Source: Calothrix anomala FACHB-343 (GTDB taxonomy: Bacteria; Cyanobacteriota; Cyanobacteriia; Cyanobacteriales; Nostocaceae). Taken from it: a stretch of 64,000 bases of DNA. Shown in pieces: positions 20,984 to 61,636 of this stretch (position 1 is its first letter; the number at the start of each line of letters is the position of its first letter). The position numbers and the translations under genes are program-made. Under the pieces are notes generated by a model. The model was not told the DNA's origin and made no database searches. It was given only the letters and a program-made list of their open reading frames with translations. Location: NCBI RefSeq assembly GCF_014696435.1, contig NZ_JACJQG010000001.1, positions 1 through 64,000 of the forward strand, given 5' to 3'.

Positions 20984-21051
20984 GTTGACGGTTGACGGTT
21001 GACGGTTGACGGTTGACAAATGACAAATGACAAATGACAAATGACAAATGA
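20984..21051. repeat. Heptanucleotide tandem repeat array
   Basis: About five units of GTTGACG, then about five of ACAAATG, filling the gap between the two half-size GDT1 genes. On the - strand the array would lie in the leader of the downstream subunit gene. Confidence 0.85.
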
Positions 21052-55589: not shown

Positions 55590-55934
55590 ATGTCTGACAT
55601 TAAATTACACGATTTAGATTCTCCTGCTGTACCATTCTTTGCTCGCTATCTCGAAGGCCAATATAGCGAAGAGTTATCTGAAGAAGAATTGTCAGGAGTC
55701 GGAGGCGGTATTAGATTTGCTACCAAGAAGTATCCTTCGGATCATGAAAATGGTGGTGGTATTACTAAACCTAGAAAAGACGAAATAGCCGTAACTCTTA
55801 AGTATCCTTCTGATCATGAAGATGGTGCTATAGCTACTAAAAAGTATCCTTCTGATAATGAAGAACTTGTTACCACTCAAAAATATCCATCAGATAATGA
55901 AGAGTCTATTGTAACTATAGACAAAATTAGTTAA
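55590..55934 (+). CDS. mdnA: Four-core microviridin (graspetide) precursor peptide
   Basis: A 114-residue ribosomal precursor. The leader (about 1-40) has the helix motif VPFFARYLEGQ (14-24) that recruits the ATP-grasp ligases, then an acidic LSEEELSGVGGG with a double-Gly site. Four cores follow: TKKYPSDHEN (45-54), TLKYPSDHED (69-78), TKKYPSDNEE (83-92) and TQKYPSDNEE (96-105). In characterised microviridins Thr-Asp and Ser-Glu esters and a Lys-Glu amide form within T-x-K-Y-P-S-D-x-E-E. Cores 3 and 4 have every residue for three rings; core 1 ends in Asn and core 2 in Asp at the amide position. AAGGA precedes the ATG. The ligase genes follow 106 bp downstream. Confidence 0.95.
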   Translation: MSDIKLHDLDSPAVPFFARYLEGQYSEELSEEELSGVGGGIRFATKKYPSDHENGGGITKPRKDEIAVTLKYPSDHEDGAIATKKYPSDNEELVTTQKYPSDNEESIVTIDKIS

Positions 55935-55956
55935 GACTCAACTGAAGATTTTACTA

Positions 55957-55979
55957 GGTGCGTTGTCCTGCAACGCACC
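55957..55979 (+). terminator. Hairpin between mdnA and mdnB, possible attenuator
   Basis: GGTGCGTTG and CAACGCACC form a perfect 9-bp stem with a five-base loop, 23 bp past the precursor stop and 60 bp before mdnB. There is no T-run. It may stabilise the precursor mRNA or reduce read-through so that peptide exceeds enzyme, a common arrangement in RiPP operons. Confidence 0.5.
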
Positions 55980-56040
55980 ATTAATCATTTAATATAATTA
56001 CTAATTCGTAATTAAAAAATACAGTTTAATTAGATGTTGT

Positions 56041-57024
56041 ATGCAACCGTCCCGTGATGTTGTTTTATTACTTACCCACAGTGGGGACTATTTCACTATT
56101 GATAGAGTTGCGGATGCTCTATCTAAACGTGGTGTCAAACCGTTTCGCCTGAATACGGATCAATTTCCGATCGCAGTTCAACTTCAAGCTGATATCAGAA
56201 ATTCTCAAGCTAGTCACAGGCTAGAATATGGTGATGTGTCAATCAGCACAGAACAAGTACAAGCTGTGTGGATGCGGCGAATTTGGCCTGCTCAGTTGAA
56301 CCAAGAATTAGCTCCCCAATACCAACAAGCTTGTATTCGCGAATCTTTAGCGGCTTTGGATGGTTTCTGGGATAGCCTAAAACATGCGCGCTGGGTAGAT
56401 AATTTACAACGAATCAATGCGGCTGAAAACAAGCTACGTCAACTGCGAGTAGCTTCTGAGGTGGGTTTGGTAATTCCGCAAACCCTGGTGACAAATAACC
56501 CTCAACAAGTAAAAGAATTTTTCACGCAGGTAGGGGGAAAGATGGTGACAAAACTATTAACACCTCTTTCCTATAGTATGGAAGGTTCTTCTTTCTTTCT
56601 TTATACCAGTGTTGTGAAAGAGGAAGATTTAGCAGATTTGGCAACTCTGCGTTATTGTCCAATGGTTTTTCAAGAACAAATTCCTAAACAGCAAGAACTG
56701 CGAGTAGTGTATGTAAATGGTCAAGTTTTTGTTGGCGCATTAGACGCAACCAAATATAATGCAGCAACAGTAGATTGGCGCAAAGGAACAGCAGAGACTT
56801 GCGTTTGGCTCAATCATGAACTTCCTGAGGAAATTATTCAGCGTCTTCATGCTTTTATGGGAAAATTTGGCTTAATATTCGGCGCTTTTGACTTGATTCA
56901 AACTCCATCTGGAGAATATGTCTTTCTGGAGGTGAACCCTACAGGTGAATGGGGAATGCTGGAACGAGATTTGCAACTTCCCATATCAGAAGCGATCGCT
57001 GATGCGTTAGTCAAGAGTCCATAG
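56041..57024 (+). CDS. mdnB: Microviridin ATP-grasp ligase, lactam-forming type (MdnB/MvdC-like)
   Basis: A 327-residue ATP-grasp ligase. The N-terminus VVLLLTHSGDYFTIDRVADAL with PFRLNTDQFP matches the MdnB/MvdC branch, which in characterised clusters forms the Lys-Glu amide after the esters are in place. The ATP-grasp core includes KMVTKLLTPLSYSMEGSS (Lys contact to ATP), VFQEQIPKQQELRVVYVNGQ, and the metal-binding EVNPTGEWGMLERD. ATG start at 56041. It lies between the precursor gene and the second ligase, the same A-B-C order as the Microcystis mdn cluster. Assignment to amide formation is by similarity. Confidence 0.92.
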   Translation: MQPSRDVVLLLTHSGDYFTIDRVADALSKRGVKPFRLNTDQFPIAVQLQADIRNSQASHRLEYGDVSISTEQVQAVWMRRIWPAQLNQELAPQYQQACIRESLAALDGFWDSLKHARWVDNLQRINAAENKLRQLRVASEVGLVIPQTLVTNNPQQVKEFFTQVGGKMVTKLLTPLSYSMEGSSFFLYTSVVKEEDLADLATLRYCPMVFQEQIPKQQELRVVYVNGQVFVGALDATKYNAATVDWRKGTAETCVWLNHELPEEIIQRLHAFMGKFGLIFGAFDLIQTPSGEYVFLEVNPTGEWGMLERDLQLPISEAIADALVKSP

Positions 57025-57116
57025 TCAATAGTCAATAGTCAATAGTCAACTGTCAACTGTCAACTGTTAACTGTCAACTGTCAACCGTCAACCGTCAACC
57101 GTCAACCGTCAACCGT
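57022..57116. repeat. Heptanucleotide tandem repeat array between the two microviridin ligase genes
   Basis: About thirteen consecutive heptamers that change stepwise from ATAGTCA through ACTGTCA to ACCGTCA. The array starts right at the mdnB stop and ends 38 bp before the mdnC start, so nearly the whole intercistronic gap is repeat DNA. Confidence 0.9.
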
Positions 57117-57153
57117 AATTAATTTAGATATTTTTTTAGATTTTTTAATTCAA

Positions 57154-58125
57154 ATGAATGTTTTAATTATTACCTATAGCCAAGATAACGAAAGTATCCC
57201 GATGGTGATGGAAGCGATCGCAAATCGGGGAGGTAAAGCATTTCGGTTTGATACAGATAGATTTCCCACAGAGATACAGCTAGATGTGTATTATGGCAAA
57301 AATGAACGCTTGATACTCACCGATGGCGACCAACAGCTAGATTTAAATACAGTATCTGCAGTTTGGTATCGCAGAATTGCGATCGCGGCGCAAATTCCAC
57401 CAACAATGGATACACAACTGCGACAAGCTTCTATGCAAGAATCTCGCGTGACTGTTCTCGGAATGATTGCTAGTATCCGGGGATTTCACCTCGATCCGCT
57501 ACCTCATATCCGTCGCGCTGAAAATAAGCAATTACAAATACAAATAGCTAGAGAAATCGGTTTAGATACACCGCGTACTTTAACCACAAATAACCCCATA
57601 GCCGTCAAGCAATTTGCTGAGGAATGCGAGCAGGGTATAATTACCAAAATGCTTTCTTCTTTTGCAATTTATGATGAGCAAGGACAGGAGAAAGTAGTAT
57701 TTACTAATCCGGTTACACCTGAAGATTTACAACATTTAGACGGGTTACGCTTTTGTCCGATGACCTTTCAGGAGAAAATTCCTAAAGCGCTAGAATTGCG
57801 GACAACGATTGTTGGTAAACAGATATTTACCGCCGCCGTTGATTCTCAAGCTTTGAAAACAGCACAATATGATTGGCGAAAAGAAGGAATCGCCTTACTT
57901 GACGCTTGGCAACCATATCAATTACCAGAGGATGTAGAATCAAAACTGCTGAAACTGATGGCGGAATTGGGTTTAAATTACGGTGCAATTGATATTTTGT
58001 TAACGCCAGATAATCGTCATGTATTTTTAGAAGTCAATCCTGTTGGGGAGTTCTTCTGGCTAGAACGCTGTCCTGGCTTACCCATTTCTCAGGCGATCGC
58101 AGATTTTTTACTAAATAAAAAATAA
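57154..58125 (+). CDS. mdnC: Microviridin ATP-grasp ligase, lactone-forming type (MdnC/MvdD-like)
   Basis: A 323-residue ATP-grasp ligase. VLIITYSQDNESIPMVMEAI and KAFRFDTDRFPTEIQLDVYY match the MdnC/MvdD branch, which forms the two ester bonds (Thr-Asp, Ser-Glu) of microviridins. The core has SAVWYRRIAI, ITKMLSSFAIYD, CPMTFQEKIPKALELRTTI and EVNPVGEFFWLERCPG (metal and ATP site). It is homologous to the preceding ligase over its full length, as expected for this enzyme pair. A strong hairpin 11 bp after the stop ends the operon; no acetyltransferase, transporter or protease gene follows. Confidence 0.93.
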   Translation: MNVLIITYSQDNESIPMVMEAIANRGGKAFRFDTDRFPTEIQLDVYYGKNERLILTDGDQQLDLNTVSAVWYRRIAIAAQIPPTMDTQLRQASMQESRVTVLGMIASIRGFHLDPLPHIRRAENKQLQIQIAREIGLDTPRTLTTNNPIAVKQFAEECEQGIITKMLSSFAIYDEQGQEKVVFTNPVTPEDLQHLDGLRFCPMTFQEKIPKALELRTTIVGKQIFTAAVDSQALKTAQYDWRKEGIALLDAWQPYQLPEDVESKLLKLMAELGLNYGAIDILLTPDNRHVFLEVNPVGEFFWLERCPGLPISQAIADFLLNKK

Positions 58126-58203: not shown

Positions 58204-60915
58204 CTAAGCAACCAAACTAAAATTGCTACTAGCCAGGGTAATATCAGGATTGCCTAAACGAGCAAATTCAAACACTTTGTCTGTACCTAAAAGATTTCCA
58301 TCCTGATTGTAGAATAGGCTACCACTACCTTGACTAAAGACAATCCGTGCATTACTAGCATTAACAAACTCATCATCAGTAACAACCGCAAAGTCGCTTA
58401 AAGCTTGTCCTGCACTATTAGTTACAGCAGTAAAAGTAGCTTTACTCAGAACAATTAAGTCTTCTCCCGCTTCAAAGTTGCTAATGTAATCAACGCCTAA
58501 AGTACTAGTAAAAGCTCCACTACCTTGGAACAAATACTTATCTTTACCAGTTCCCCCAGTCAGAATATCATCGCCCAGTCCGCCCCAGAGGGTATCATCT
58601 CCGGCTAATCCTTGTAGTTGGTCGTTGCCACTACCACCAGTGAGGTTATTATTTAAAGCATTACCTGTGAGACGGTCATTACCTGAACCACCTCTGGCAT
58701 TTTCAATCACATTGTTGGCAGAGAGAATTAATTTGAGATTAGTATTCACCGTTTGCGCTGTGGTGACACCCAAATTCACCCGCACACCTACAGTAGTACC
58801 ATTGAAATCAATGGTATCAATACCACCTGTAGCTGTTTCAGTAATAGTATCAGTCCCTAAAGCTGTATTAGCTACAAAAGCATAGGTGTCATTCCCTGTA
58901 CCACCAGCTAAAGTATTATTGGCACTATTACCTTTGAGGATATTATTGCCAGCATTCCCTGTAGCGTTGATGGCGGCTGTTCCTGTGAGGGTGAGGTTTT
59001 CTACATTAGTTGGCAATGTAGTAGTGACAGCAGCACTGAGGGTATCCGTGATAGTAGTGGTGACAGTACTGGTTGTACCCAGGCTCGCATTGGTAGGAGA
59101 TGTCAGTTTCAGGGTAAAGGTTTCATCTGCTTCACTAATGGAATCATTGAGAATGGGGATATTGATCGCCTTACTGGTTTGTCCTGGGGCAAAAGTCAGG
59201 GTTCCAGTAGTGCTGGTGTAGTCTGAACCTGCTGTAGCTGTACCGTTAGCAGTAGCATAGTTAACAGTGATAGTTTGGCTGCTGGCTTGGGAGAGACTAA
59301 CGGTATATGCAGCGTTTTGTGGACTGATTAAGCCTTCGACTATTGTCTGGCTAGCACTGAGGTTGATGGTGATACCAGAAGGATCGTCATTGGTAATCGT
59401 GCCGGTGACTGCTGTTGTCGTGCCGATGGTGTAACCTGTTCCTGTTGCCAGAGTTAAAGCGACGGTTTCATTAGCTTCAAAGGTGGTGTCTGCGGTGGGG
59501 TTAACAGTGAGAGTGGCTGTACTTGCACCTGCTGCAAAGGTAATGGTTCCTGTGGTAGCTGTGAAACTGGCTGCACCGCTTTGGGTGTAGTCTGTGTTGA
59601 GGGTGGCTGTACCAGCAACGTTATAGTTAACAGTTAAAGCATTAGTTGTGCTTCCAGTTCTGGTGAAGGTGTAAACCAAATTGGCTGTTCCATCTTCGAG
59701 GACACTACTCGGAGATACAGCCAGGGTAATGCTAGAAGGGACATCTAGGGTGAGAGTTTGATCGGAAAACTGGATTCTTTCGAGATCGTATAGTTTATCG
59801 ATGCCATCACGACCAGCCACTGTATCGGTAACTGTATAGACGCCTCCACTACTAGTGACTTGATATTGGGCACGAGTACCTGAGTAAACAGCGATATCAT
59901 TCCCGGTACCACCATAGAGAGTATCATTGCCTGCACCCCCGTCTAAACGGTCATCACCTTGTTCACCAAACAGGACATCATTACCAGCTAATGCGTTGAT
60001 GGTATCATTACCTAAACCACCGAATAATTGATCGGGGTAACTGGTAAAATTACTACCATTAACAGTATCATTGATATTCGCAGCGTTGAAAATGAAATCA
60101 CTGGCTTGTAGTACGTTGGGATTGATGTTTAGGAGTTTGATTTGGGACTGATCGCCACTAAAATAAGTTGTAATCAGTGCATTGTTTTCACCATCATTAC
60201 TAATGAGTAATTTCAGGGTATTCCAATCACTAATTTTCAGGTTTCTGACATCAATTCTGTCTTGTCCTTGAATAAAGTCTATGACGACATCGTTGCCTGG
60301 ATCGTATTGCAAGTTGAAGACATCATTACCTGTGCCACCGTAGAGAGTATCATTGCCTGCACCCCCGTCTAAACGGTCATCACCTTGTTCACCAAACAGG
60401 ACATCATTACCAGCTAATGCGTTGATGGTATCATTACCTAAACCACCGAATAATTGATCGGGGTAACTGGTAAAATTACTACCATTAACAGTATCATTGG
60501 TATTCGCAGTGTTGAAAATGAAATTACTGGCTTGTAGTAGGCTGGGATTAATGTTCAGGAGTTTGATTTGGGACTGATCGCCACTAAAATAAGTTGTAAT
60601 CAGTGCATTGTTTTCACCATCATTACTAATAAGTAATTTCAGGGTATTCCAATCACTAATTTTCAGGTTGCTGACATCAATTTTGTCTTGTCCTCGAACA
60701 AAGTCTGTGACAAGATCGTTACCTTGAGGGTATTCAAATTTAAAGACATCATTACCAGCGCCACCGGATAGGGTATCATTGCCTATACCACCTTCTAAAC
60801 GGTCATTTCCACCTCCTCCAGAAAGTGAATCATTACCACCAGCGCCTTGAATAGTATCATTTTCCGCATTCCCGGTTAAAGTATCGTTATTGTTGGTTCC
60901 TGGAATCAGAGCCAT
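58204..60915 (-). CDS. RTX (haemolysin-type Ca2+-binding) protein with Calx-beta domains
   Basis: A 903-residue, very acidic, Gly/Asp/Asn-rich protein. N-terminal RTX nonapeptide blocks (such as GGAGNDTLYGGTGND) are interleaved with a segment ending in DFIFNAAN. Two Calx-beta domains follow (about 400-510 and 512-620; each ends ...TIT-DD/D), then more RTX repeats and a C-terminal region (LGTDKVFEFARLGNPDITL) of the kind used for type I secretion. There is no N-terminal signal peptide. Ca2+ should fold it after export; adhesion or surface display is likely, with no enzymatic domain seen. The ATG at 60915 is preceded by AAGGAT. No ABC exporter gene is adjacent. Confidence 0.88.
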   Translation of the reverse strand: MALIPGTNNNDTLTGNAENDTIQGAGGNDSLSGGGGNDRLEGGIGNDTLSGGAGNDVFKFEYPQGNDLVTDFVRGQDKIDVSNLKISDWNTLKLLISNDGENNALITTYFSGDQSQIKLLNINPSLLQASNFIFNTANTNDTVNGSNFTSYPDQLFGGLGNDTINALAGNDVLFGEQGDDRLDGGAGNDTLYGGTGNDVFNLQYDPGNDVVIDFIQGQDRIDVRNLKISDWNTLKLLISNDGENNALITTYFSGDQSQIKLLNINPNVLQASDFIFNAANINDTVNGSNFTSYPDQLFGGLGNDTINALAGNDVLFGEQGDDRLDGGAGNDTLYGGTGNDIAVYSGTRAQYQVTSSGGVYTVTDTVAGRDGIDKLYDLERIQFSDQTLTLDVPSSITLAVSPSSVLEDGTANLVYTFTRTGSTTNALTVNYNVAGTATLNTDYTQSGAASFTATTGTITFAAGASTATLTVNPTADTTFEANETVALTLATGTGYTIGTTTAVTGTITNDDPSGITINLSASQTIVEGLISPQNAAYTVSLSQASSQTITVNYATANGTATAGSDYTSTTGTLTFAPGQTSKAINIPILNDSISEADETFTLKLTSPTNASLGTTSTVTTTITDTLSAAVTTTLPTNVENLTLTGTAAINATGNAGNNILKGNSANNTLAGGTGNDTYAFVANTALGTDTITETATGGIDTIDFNGTTVGVRVNLGVTTAQTVNTNLKLILSANNVIENARGGSGNDRLTGNALNNNLTGGSGNDQLQGLAGDDTLWGGLGDDILTGGTGKDKYLFQGSGAFTSTLGVDYISNFEAGEDLIVLSKATFTAVTNSAGQALSDFAVVTDDEFVNASNARIVFSQGSGSLFYNQDGNLLGTDKVFEFARLGNPDITLASSNFSLVA
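59911..60716. repeat. 426-bp tandem duplication inside the RTX gene
   Basis: Two nearly identical copies offset by 426 bp (142 codons): for example TAGAGAGTATCATTGCCTGC occurs at 59915 and 60341. Each unit contains an RTX block, the NGSNFTSYPDQLFGGLGND segment and the ISDWNTLKLLISNDGENN segment. Only scattered base differences are visible, so the duplication is recent or kept uniform by conversion. Confidence 0.88.
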
Positions 60916-61636
60916 AGTTGTAATATCCTTGTTGGGTTTGAAATGATGGAGTGACCTGTAAATTTCATCAAAATCCCCTCCATACCTTTGCAAAAACAGA
61001 GGTAAGTAGTGACACAAAATTATTCATGCGATCGCGCGATCGCATGACAAATACCTGATATTCGGCAAATCAGTAATTTAACGTAAGCCTAGATGCAACC
61101 TTTAAATATTCAATTAGGTACTACACAGGAGTCTAACGAGATTTCCGAAGCAGATGTATAAAGATTGTGTAAATTTACTGGTAAAATGTAGCCTAAATTA
61201 CAAAATATCGCTTATTTCGGCGGCTTTTTCCCGTACCAGAGTAATTATGCGTAAATATACCAGTTATTTCAATAGTTTTAATACTTATATTGACAGTAGC
61301 GACTGTCTTAAAAGTCAAGCGATCGCAAACCAAAAATGCAAAGCGCGATCGCCTGTATGATGATGAACCGCAATCTCAATGACCTTGATCCTACTGACAA
61401 CTGACACCAAGAAAATAGATATATTGGGCACTTAATTGCTACTTAATACGTCACAAATTTTAAGTTGCTGAGTTTGCTTGCATAACTCAGGCAACTCAGG
61501 CGATCGCGAAAATATTTGACAACCAAACATGAAAAGCTCCCTCTCCTAACCCCTAGCCCCTAGCTCCTAGCCCCTAAAGATTTTAATGCACAGGGAATGC
61601 ATAACTACCAGTTAATCAATTCTCTAATAGGCATAA
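60916..61636. other. Intergenic region with no convincing gene
   Basis: About 720 bp. It holds the RTX-gene leader, a double HIP1 palindrome at 61025-61046, and several further HIP1 sites. Near 61548 lies a short CCCCTAGC-type repeat, also seen near 22150. A 68-codon frame at 61154 has no recognisable domain and is rejected. Confidence 0.55.
61025..61046. repeat. Double HIP1 palindrome
   Basis: A perfect 22-bp palindrome, CATGCGATCG plus CGCGATCGCATG, formed by two fused HIP1 octamers, 110 bp before the RTX-gene start. Confidence 0.7.

Follow-up and report, generated by a model that had tools for sequence, protein, structure and literature searches.

Introduction

Class II microviridins are made from precursors that carry several cores behind a single leader, and published descriptions of the class report a double-glycine motif and as many as five cores (PMC13039773, PMC7823629). 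In the account of PMC13039773, ring formation is divided between two families of ATP-grasp ligase, the MvdC family being the lactam enzyme and the MvdD family the lactone enzyme. The system that comes closest to the one described here is AMdnA/B/C of Anabaena PCC 7120, likewise a multi-core precursor with two ATP-grasp ligases (PMC5934393; PDB entry 7m4s). According to PMC5934393, the three-core AMdnA has been examined biochemically, and AMdnC lactonises the three natural cores as well as an engineered four-core substrate. The same paper describes a "quasi-core", TGKLRDE, which contains Thr59 and can take one ring; two AMdnA variants without it were not processed by AMdnC, and it is said to play its role "in an unclear manner". 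A literature search on the quasi-core in microviridins returned this paper alone. Class I microviridins are alike in their TxKYPSDx(E/D)(E/D) chemistry and PFFAR leader but have one core and mostly no double-glycine site; plesiocin and chryseoviridin, which also have several ring units per chain, are set apart by descriptions that call them distant from or unlike microviridin.

Here we report an mdnA-mdnB-mdnC locus of Calothrix anomala FACHB-343, at positions 55590 to 58125 of the first 64,000 nucleotides of contig NZ_JACJQG010000001.1 (assembly GCF_014696435.1), the whole of which we call the window. Read from its sequence, it is an intact-looking class II microviridin (graspetide) cluster. 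The four-core class II type is already known; the additions made here are a first core without an acid at position 10 (acid10) and a quasi-core. The locus thereby adds a four-core arrangement, common to two related species, to a class in which AMdnA is the biochemical study that we found.

Gene content and class assignment

The features of the locus are as follows.

mdnA, 55590 to 55934, plus strand: class II microviridin precursor of 114 residues, with leader, four cores and quasi-core (open reading frame, PF12559, NF033738)
leader, 55590 to 55709, plus strand: residues 1-40, helix VPFFARYLE, then the double-glycine site LSEEELSGVGGG
core 1, TKKYPSDHEN, 55722 to 55751, plus strand: residues 45-54, no acid at position 10; identical core in C. 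brevissima NIES-22
quasi-core, TKPRKDE, 55764 to 55784, plus strand: residues 59-65, with Thr59, Asp64 and Glu65; called on position and on T-x4-D enrichment over shuffles
core 2, TLKYPSDHED, 55794 to 55823, plus strand: residues 69-78, complete
core 3, TKKYPSDNEE, 55836 to 55865, plus strand: residues 83-92, complete
core 4, TQKYPSDNEE, 55875 to 55904, plus strand: residues 96-105, complete
mdnB, 56041 to 57024, plus strand: ATP-grasp ligase of the lactam branch, MvdC family (TIGR04185, PDB 7m4s)
mdnC, 57154 to 58125, plus strand: ATP-grasp ligase of the lactone branch, MvdD family (TIGR04184, PDB 5ig9_A)

An earlier, sequence-only reading of this DNA had proposed a microviridin locus with a 114-residue precursor, a VPFFARYLE recruitment helix within it and two ATP-grasp genes of the MdnB and MdnC branches, and each of these proposals is borne out: the three open reading frames lie on the plus strand at exactly the coordinates that it gave, the helix motif is present, and the family and equivalog matches are far above chance. 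The precursor matches Pfam PF12559 (Inhibitor_I10) with an E-value of 2.7e-28 and 98.4 bits (cut-off 21) and NCBIfam NF033738 (microvirid_RiPP) with 89 bits (cut-off 26), while each ligase scores above the threshold set for its equivalog model, MdnB with 525 bits against the 425 of TIGR04185 (MvdC/MdnB) and MdnC with 542 bits against the 475 of TIGR04184 (MvdD/MdnC). The best PDB match of MdnB is AMdnB (7m4s, E 1.6e-158) and that of MdnC is the ATP-grasp ligase 5ig9_A (E 1.2e-134), with 5ig8 as a further solved homologue; entry 5ig9 also contains a chain named Microviridin, chain P, which the leader matches weakly (E 0.0099). An Inhibitor_I10/microvirid_RiPP precursor with a PFFAR leader helix, next to lactone- and lactam-branch ligases, is what marks a microviridin locus, and four cores behind one leader together with the double-glycine motif LSEEELSGVGGG are what marks class II.

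The same reading had counted four KYPSD cores and gave T-x-K-Y-P-S-D-x-E-E as the known form of such cores. Four T-x-K-Y-P-S-D cores are indeed there, their DNA copies spaced by 72, 42 and 39 nucleotides, and cores 2 to 4 agree with the pattern TxKxPSDx(D/E)(D/E), but core 1 ends in HEN, lacks the last acid and is not a full core. This Asn end was overlooked, as was the degenerate TKPRKDE element between cores 1 and 2. The statement that multi-core precursors are known from other cyanobacteria agrees with what is in print (PMC13039773, PMC5934393).

In a sample of 388 genomes from the order, itself a larger group, PF12559 was found at E 0.01 in 72 (68 above the curated cut-off), and at E 1e-4 it was found in at least 106 of 218 genomes of the family. 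The loci used for comparison are a subset of all matches, taken from the 388-genome sample, from the matches listed for the family and from the 80 of 184 matches kept in a third search. Requiring a PFF-type leader and removing rows identical from that motif onward, we extracted 122 unique precursors from the fetched loci, 111 of them class II-like; three loci (L197, L206 and L209) yielded no precursor. The 110 class II-like precursors with counted cores comprise 64 with three cores, 17 with four, 17 with two, six with one, five with five and one with twelve, which makes the locus an ordinary member of its class. Since the sampled sequences are related, the p-values given below overstate independence. 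The twelve-core precursor is encoded by L193 (positions 296-1078, from Myxococcus sp. MY1, a metagenome-assembled genome), with MdnB- and MdnC-like genes downstream at 43% and 50% identity; its core number exceeds the five given for class II in PMC13039773.

The closest relative is C. brevissima NIES-22 (loci L072 and L132, which are one and the same), with the same four-core layout, the same HEN end of core 1 and a quasi-core TKPKKDD. Identity to the window is 84% for mdnA, 96.9% for MdnB and 99.1% for MdnC, so that the ligases barely differ, whereas cores 2 to 4 do (NEE; KAPSDTDE; GDD) and one linker is longer. NIES-22 shares three downstream neighbours (RTX, GHL10 and the last one), and the three upstream neighbours scanned had no match in the 18 kb of NIES-22 that were fetched. 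In the remaining seven genomes of this genus there was no PF12559 at E 1e-4 among the matches listed, one of them (G359) giving a weaker, leader-only match. The genome of FACHB-343 itself has a second, class I-like locus on contig C79 (L009, 6807-6947), with a 47-residue precursor ending in VPWTFKYPSDLEDQ and MdnB- and MdnC-type genes of its own; read by eye, an open reading frame resembling nonribosomal peptide synthetases lies upstream and ABC-type frames lie on both sides.

Core 1 and the lactam

Without an acid at position 10, core 1 should be unable to form the usual Lys lactam. Its Lys lacks the usual partner and core 1 should, on its sequence, stay bicyclic; as mdnB is present in the window, core 1 should merely escape lactam formation.

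The 111 class II-like precursors contain 337 cores, in which Lys3 is kept without acid10 nine times and is itself lost 14 times. All nine Ala3 cores are without acid10; it is retained in the four cores with Arg3 and in the one with Asn3. The joint loss of Lys3 and acid10 (Fisher p 6e-10 over the 337 cores, 8e-5 over 136 unique cores) is a tendency that fits a Lys3-acid10 lactam, absent in core 1, and it predicts lactam-free cores inside arrays, core 1 here included. Leaving aside single-core precursors and the twelve-core L193, cores that are lactam-incompetent for want of Lys3 or acid10 make up 14 of 103 first cores versus 8 of 216 in later positions (p 0.002).

Among the loci searched for both ligases, within the fetched stretches alone, nine have a complete MdnC near the precursor and no MdnB match (L077, L078, L079, L086, L099, L115, L121, L131 and L205; the rest of those genomes was not searched for it), and these are possible lactone-only clusters. 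Five of the nine carry a core that has Ala3 or lacks acid10, and in L131 the core ends before position 10. Counter to a simple rule, a core lacking acid10 also occurs in 5 of the 34 listed two-ligase loci (the window, L072, L097, L114 and L123), and L175 combines an Ala3 core with both ligases.

Protease specificity

None of the cores has the WEEW or WEEY tail, from which it had been argued earlier that protease specificity may be new. This is not supported, since cores without such a tail are the norm in class II: Trp at position 8 occurs in none of the 337 cores, Trp at position 11 in six and Tyr at position 11 in 35. In the section of PMC7823629 that treats specificity, it is attributed mainly to "position 5", the residue flanked by Thr and Lys, with changes at positions 7, 9 and 11 mattering less. 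This residue is K, L, K and Q in cores 1 to 4, and all three are common there (K in 80, L in 96 and Q in 63 of the 337 cores). The tail is nevertheless not irrelevant for every protease, because the same source suggests a missing indole group as a possible cause for microviridins D-F not inhibiting thrombin (PMC7823629).

Proposed product, processing and export

The genes, cores, leader, double-glycine site and relatives above were read from sequence; for the ring chemistry, characterised homologues served as the guide. On their example, the leader helix would recruit MdnC and MdnB, MdnC would form the Thr-Asp and then the Ser-Glu lactone on each core, and MdnB would form the Lys-Glu/Asp lactam. 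From the residues present we predict a ring plan of 2-3-3-3 on cores 1 to 4, with 11 waters lost, and possibly a twelfth if Thr of the quasi-core also forms a lactone. The loss of two or three waters per core that had been expected earlier fits these residues, core 1 being predicted at two. We consider it highly probable that both the cluster type and the ring plan are correct.

A motif scan finds one canonical double-glycine site, at residues 34-40, before core 1. Compared with what we take to be the double-glycine consensus, LSEEELSGVGGG has L at -12 and -7, E at -8, V at -4 and G at -2 and -1 if the cut falls after Gly40. By homology with characterised systems, this cut is probably the work of a C39 peptidase-transporter whose gene lies outside the cluster, at another place in the genome. 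A sole cut at Gly40 would give a 74-residue chain with four heads and with Lys, Leu, Lys and Gln as P1 residues, and for this chain, from Ile41 and with 11 waters lost, we compute a monoisotopic mass of ~8079 Da. By analogy, its targets would be trypsin-like as well as elastase/chymotrypsin/subtilisin-like enzymes. Since the single canonical site lies before core 1, one cut could give such a four-headed chain and not four peptides; the chances of this single-chain product seem to us about even.

Alternatively, a further protease acting in the linkers would split the chain into four free peptides, in line with the up to four products of the earlier reading. GG of any kind occurs in 76 of 227 inter-core gaps, and GGG directly follows core 1, but the canonical pattern occurs in just 1 of the 227 gaps, and the gaps between cores 2 and 3 (four residues) and cores 3 and 4 (three residues) are both without GG. 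The canonical pattern, hydrophobic at -7 and -4, is strict: it picks up the leader site of 68 among the 111 precursors and, missing many leader sites, may miss linker sites too. We would give release of four peptides a real chance, though one somewhat short of even.

Several observations weigh against the proposed scheme of rings and processing. Core 1 of AMdnA mostly gained one lactone in the experiments reported in PMC5934393, and ring counts may fall short here too. No exporter or processing protease was found among the nine open reading frames scanned between 50731 and 63987 (small frames were not scanned, and one frame was without any match), the RTX neighbour matching a serralysin C-terminal repeat domain and no protease domain; seven C39 query proteins gave no match in the 64-kb window. 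A linked C39 peptidase-transporter, which the literature calls frequent in class II and not required, is thus missing from the window. Ten C39 matches, of which seven are strong, occur in the genome, all outside the mdnA-C contig. One of them seemed a candidate: the C58 (L069) C39 gene is 75-79% identical to C39 genes beside the precursors of four loci. It does not set carriers of the cluster apart, and a dedicated partnership is not supported, as genus relatives without PF12559 among the matches listed have 75-85% matches over the 60 residues searched, and as C. brevissima, which carries the cluster, matches at just 73%. Of 26 stretches of at least 8 kb, the window included, nine have C39 matches (L074, L075, L082, L085, L087, L090, L091, L093 and L129), and in L087, L090, L093 and L129, the four just mentioned, the C39 gene adjoins the precursor on the opposite strand.

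The quasi-core

AMdnA can be compared by the residue numbers and the motif given in PMC5934393. In both precursors the core-1 residues Asp51 and Glu53 and the quasi-core Thr59 have the same numbers; the quasi-core reads TGKLRDE in AMdnA and TKPRKDE in the window, and AMdnA differs in having three cores instead of four and its core-2 Asp at 76 instead of 75. A search with the back-translated AMdnA quasi-core gave matches in 8 of 218 genomes and did not recover AMdnA.

Of the 90 gaps of at least 9 residues, 38 contain the T-x4-D motif, versus a mean of 5.9 and a maximum of 12 in 300 shuffles. T-x4-D is the largest of several excesses (T-x5-D 13, T-x7-D 13 and T-x8-D 14, versus shuffle maxima of 13, 9 and 12), all of which are inflated by related rows and by other decayed cores. 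An argument for conservation from pooled ratios of nonsynonymous to synonymous change (0.35 over T..D and 0.78 after it) was discarded, because rows selected for the motif fix Thr and Asp. Recounted without that selection, first gaps of at least 10 residues have Thr at -10 in 25 of 58 cases and Asp at -5 in 34 of 58.

How such an element may arise is suggested by intermediate sequences. In Plectonema radiosum NIES-515 (L074) an intact TNKFPSDKED is accompanied by TNKFPRDKED, and further variants occur in L073 (TNKFRDKYD) and L075 (TNKLRDKHD); these suggest a path of decay from core to quasi-core by change of Ser to Arg and loss of Pro. On a tree of MdnC from 44 clusters, the motif is present in 18, in both halves of the tree, and absent in 26, its label requiring 11 changes (mean of shuffled labels 14.2; 27 of 500 shuffles as low). 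The motif thus recurs in many, not all, Nostocaceae precursors, and since 26 of the 44 clusters do without it, it cannot be required in general.

A rival explanation is that selection keeps the quasi-core for enzyme recognition or as a spacer, and that it is not the remnant of a decayed core. The failure of AMdnC to process the two AMdnA variants without it, cited above from PMC5934393, points this way, as does the enrichment over shuffles; its absence from more than half of the tree clusters and the changes needed to place it there argue otherwise, as does the first-gap Asp at -5, coded GAT in 34 of 34 cases, with no sign of old, diverged codons. We think this explanation unlikely, at perhaps one chance in a few. 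A silent or decaying cluster, to which the missing acid10 of core 1, the degenerate core-like element and the unlinked exporter might point, is quite improbable in view of full-length ligases 97-99% identical between two species and of an intact precursor frame, leader and three complete cores.

We offer, as a speculation that we rate as rather unlikely, that the product is a single secreted four-headed inhibitor of mixed topology, with one two-lactone head, three tricyclic heads and different P1 residues. In this proposal the quasi-core would have arisen repeatedly by decay of cores (Ser to Arg or Lys, Pro lost) and been kept by part of the family as a one-ring element that influences MdnC and closes on Asp, not on Glu as proposed for AMdnA.

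Intergenic and neighbouring sequence

One further feature lies between mdnA and mdnB.

hairpin, 55957 to 55979, no strand assigned: perfect 9-bp stem, its exact pattern unique in the 9.24-Mb genome

This hairpin is a possible attenuator or mRNA-stability element. That it might be a dispersed repeat was dismissed, the exact stem pattern being found at one place in the genome only, and Rfam found nothing in the window. The C. brevissima counterpart has a stem of 11 bp and the loop in reverse complement, which gives the impression of a flipped element. Most of the gap between mdnB and mdnC is filled by heptamer tandem repeats (GTCAACT/GTCAACC, 57008-57113), which are also present in C. brevissima; heptamer arrays recur in the window, for example at 20984, 31152 and 43815. 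Beside the cluster, on the minus strand, a large RTX/Calx-beta repeat protein is encoded at 58204-61017, and its gene contains an internal duplication of 426 bp at 59896-60806.
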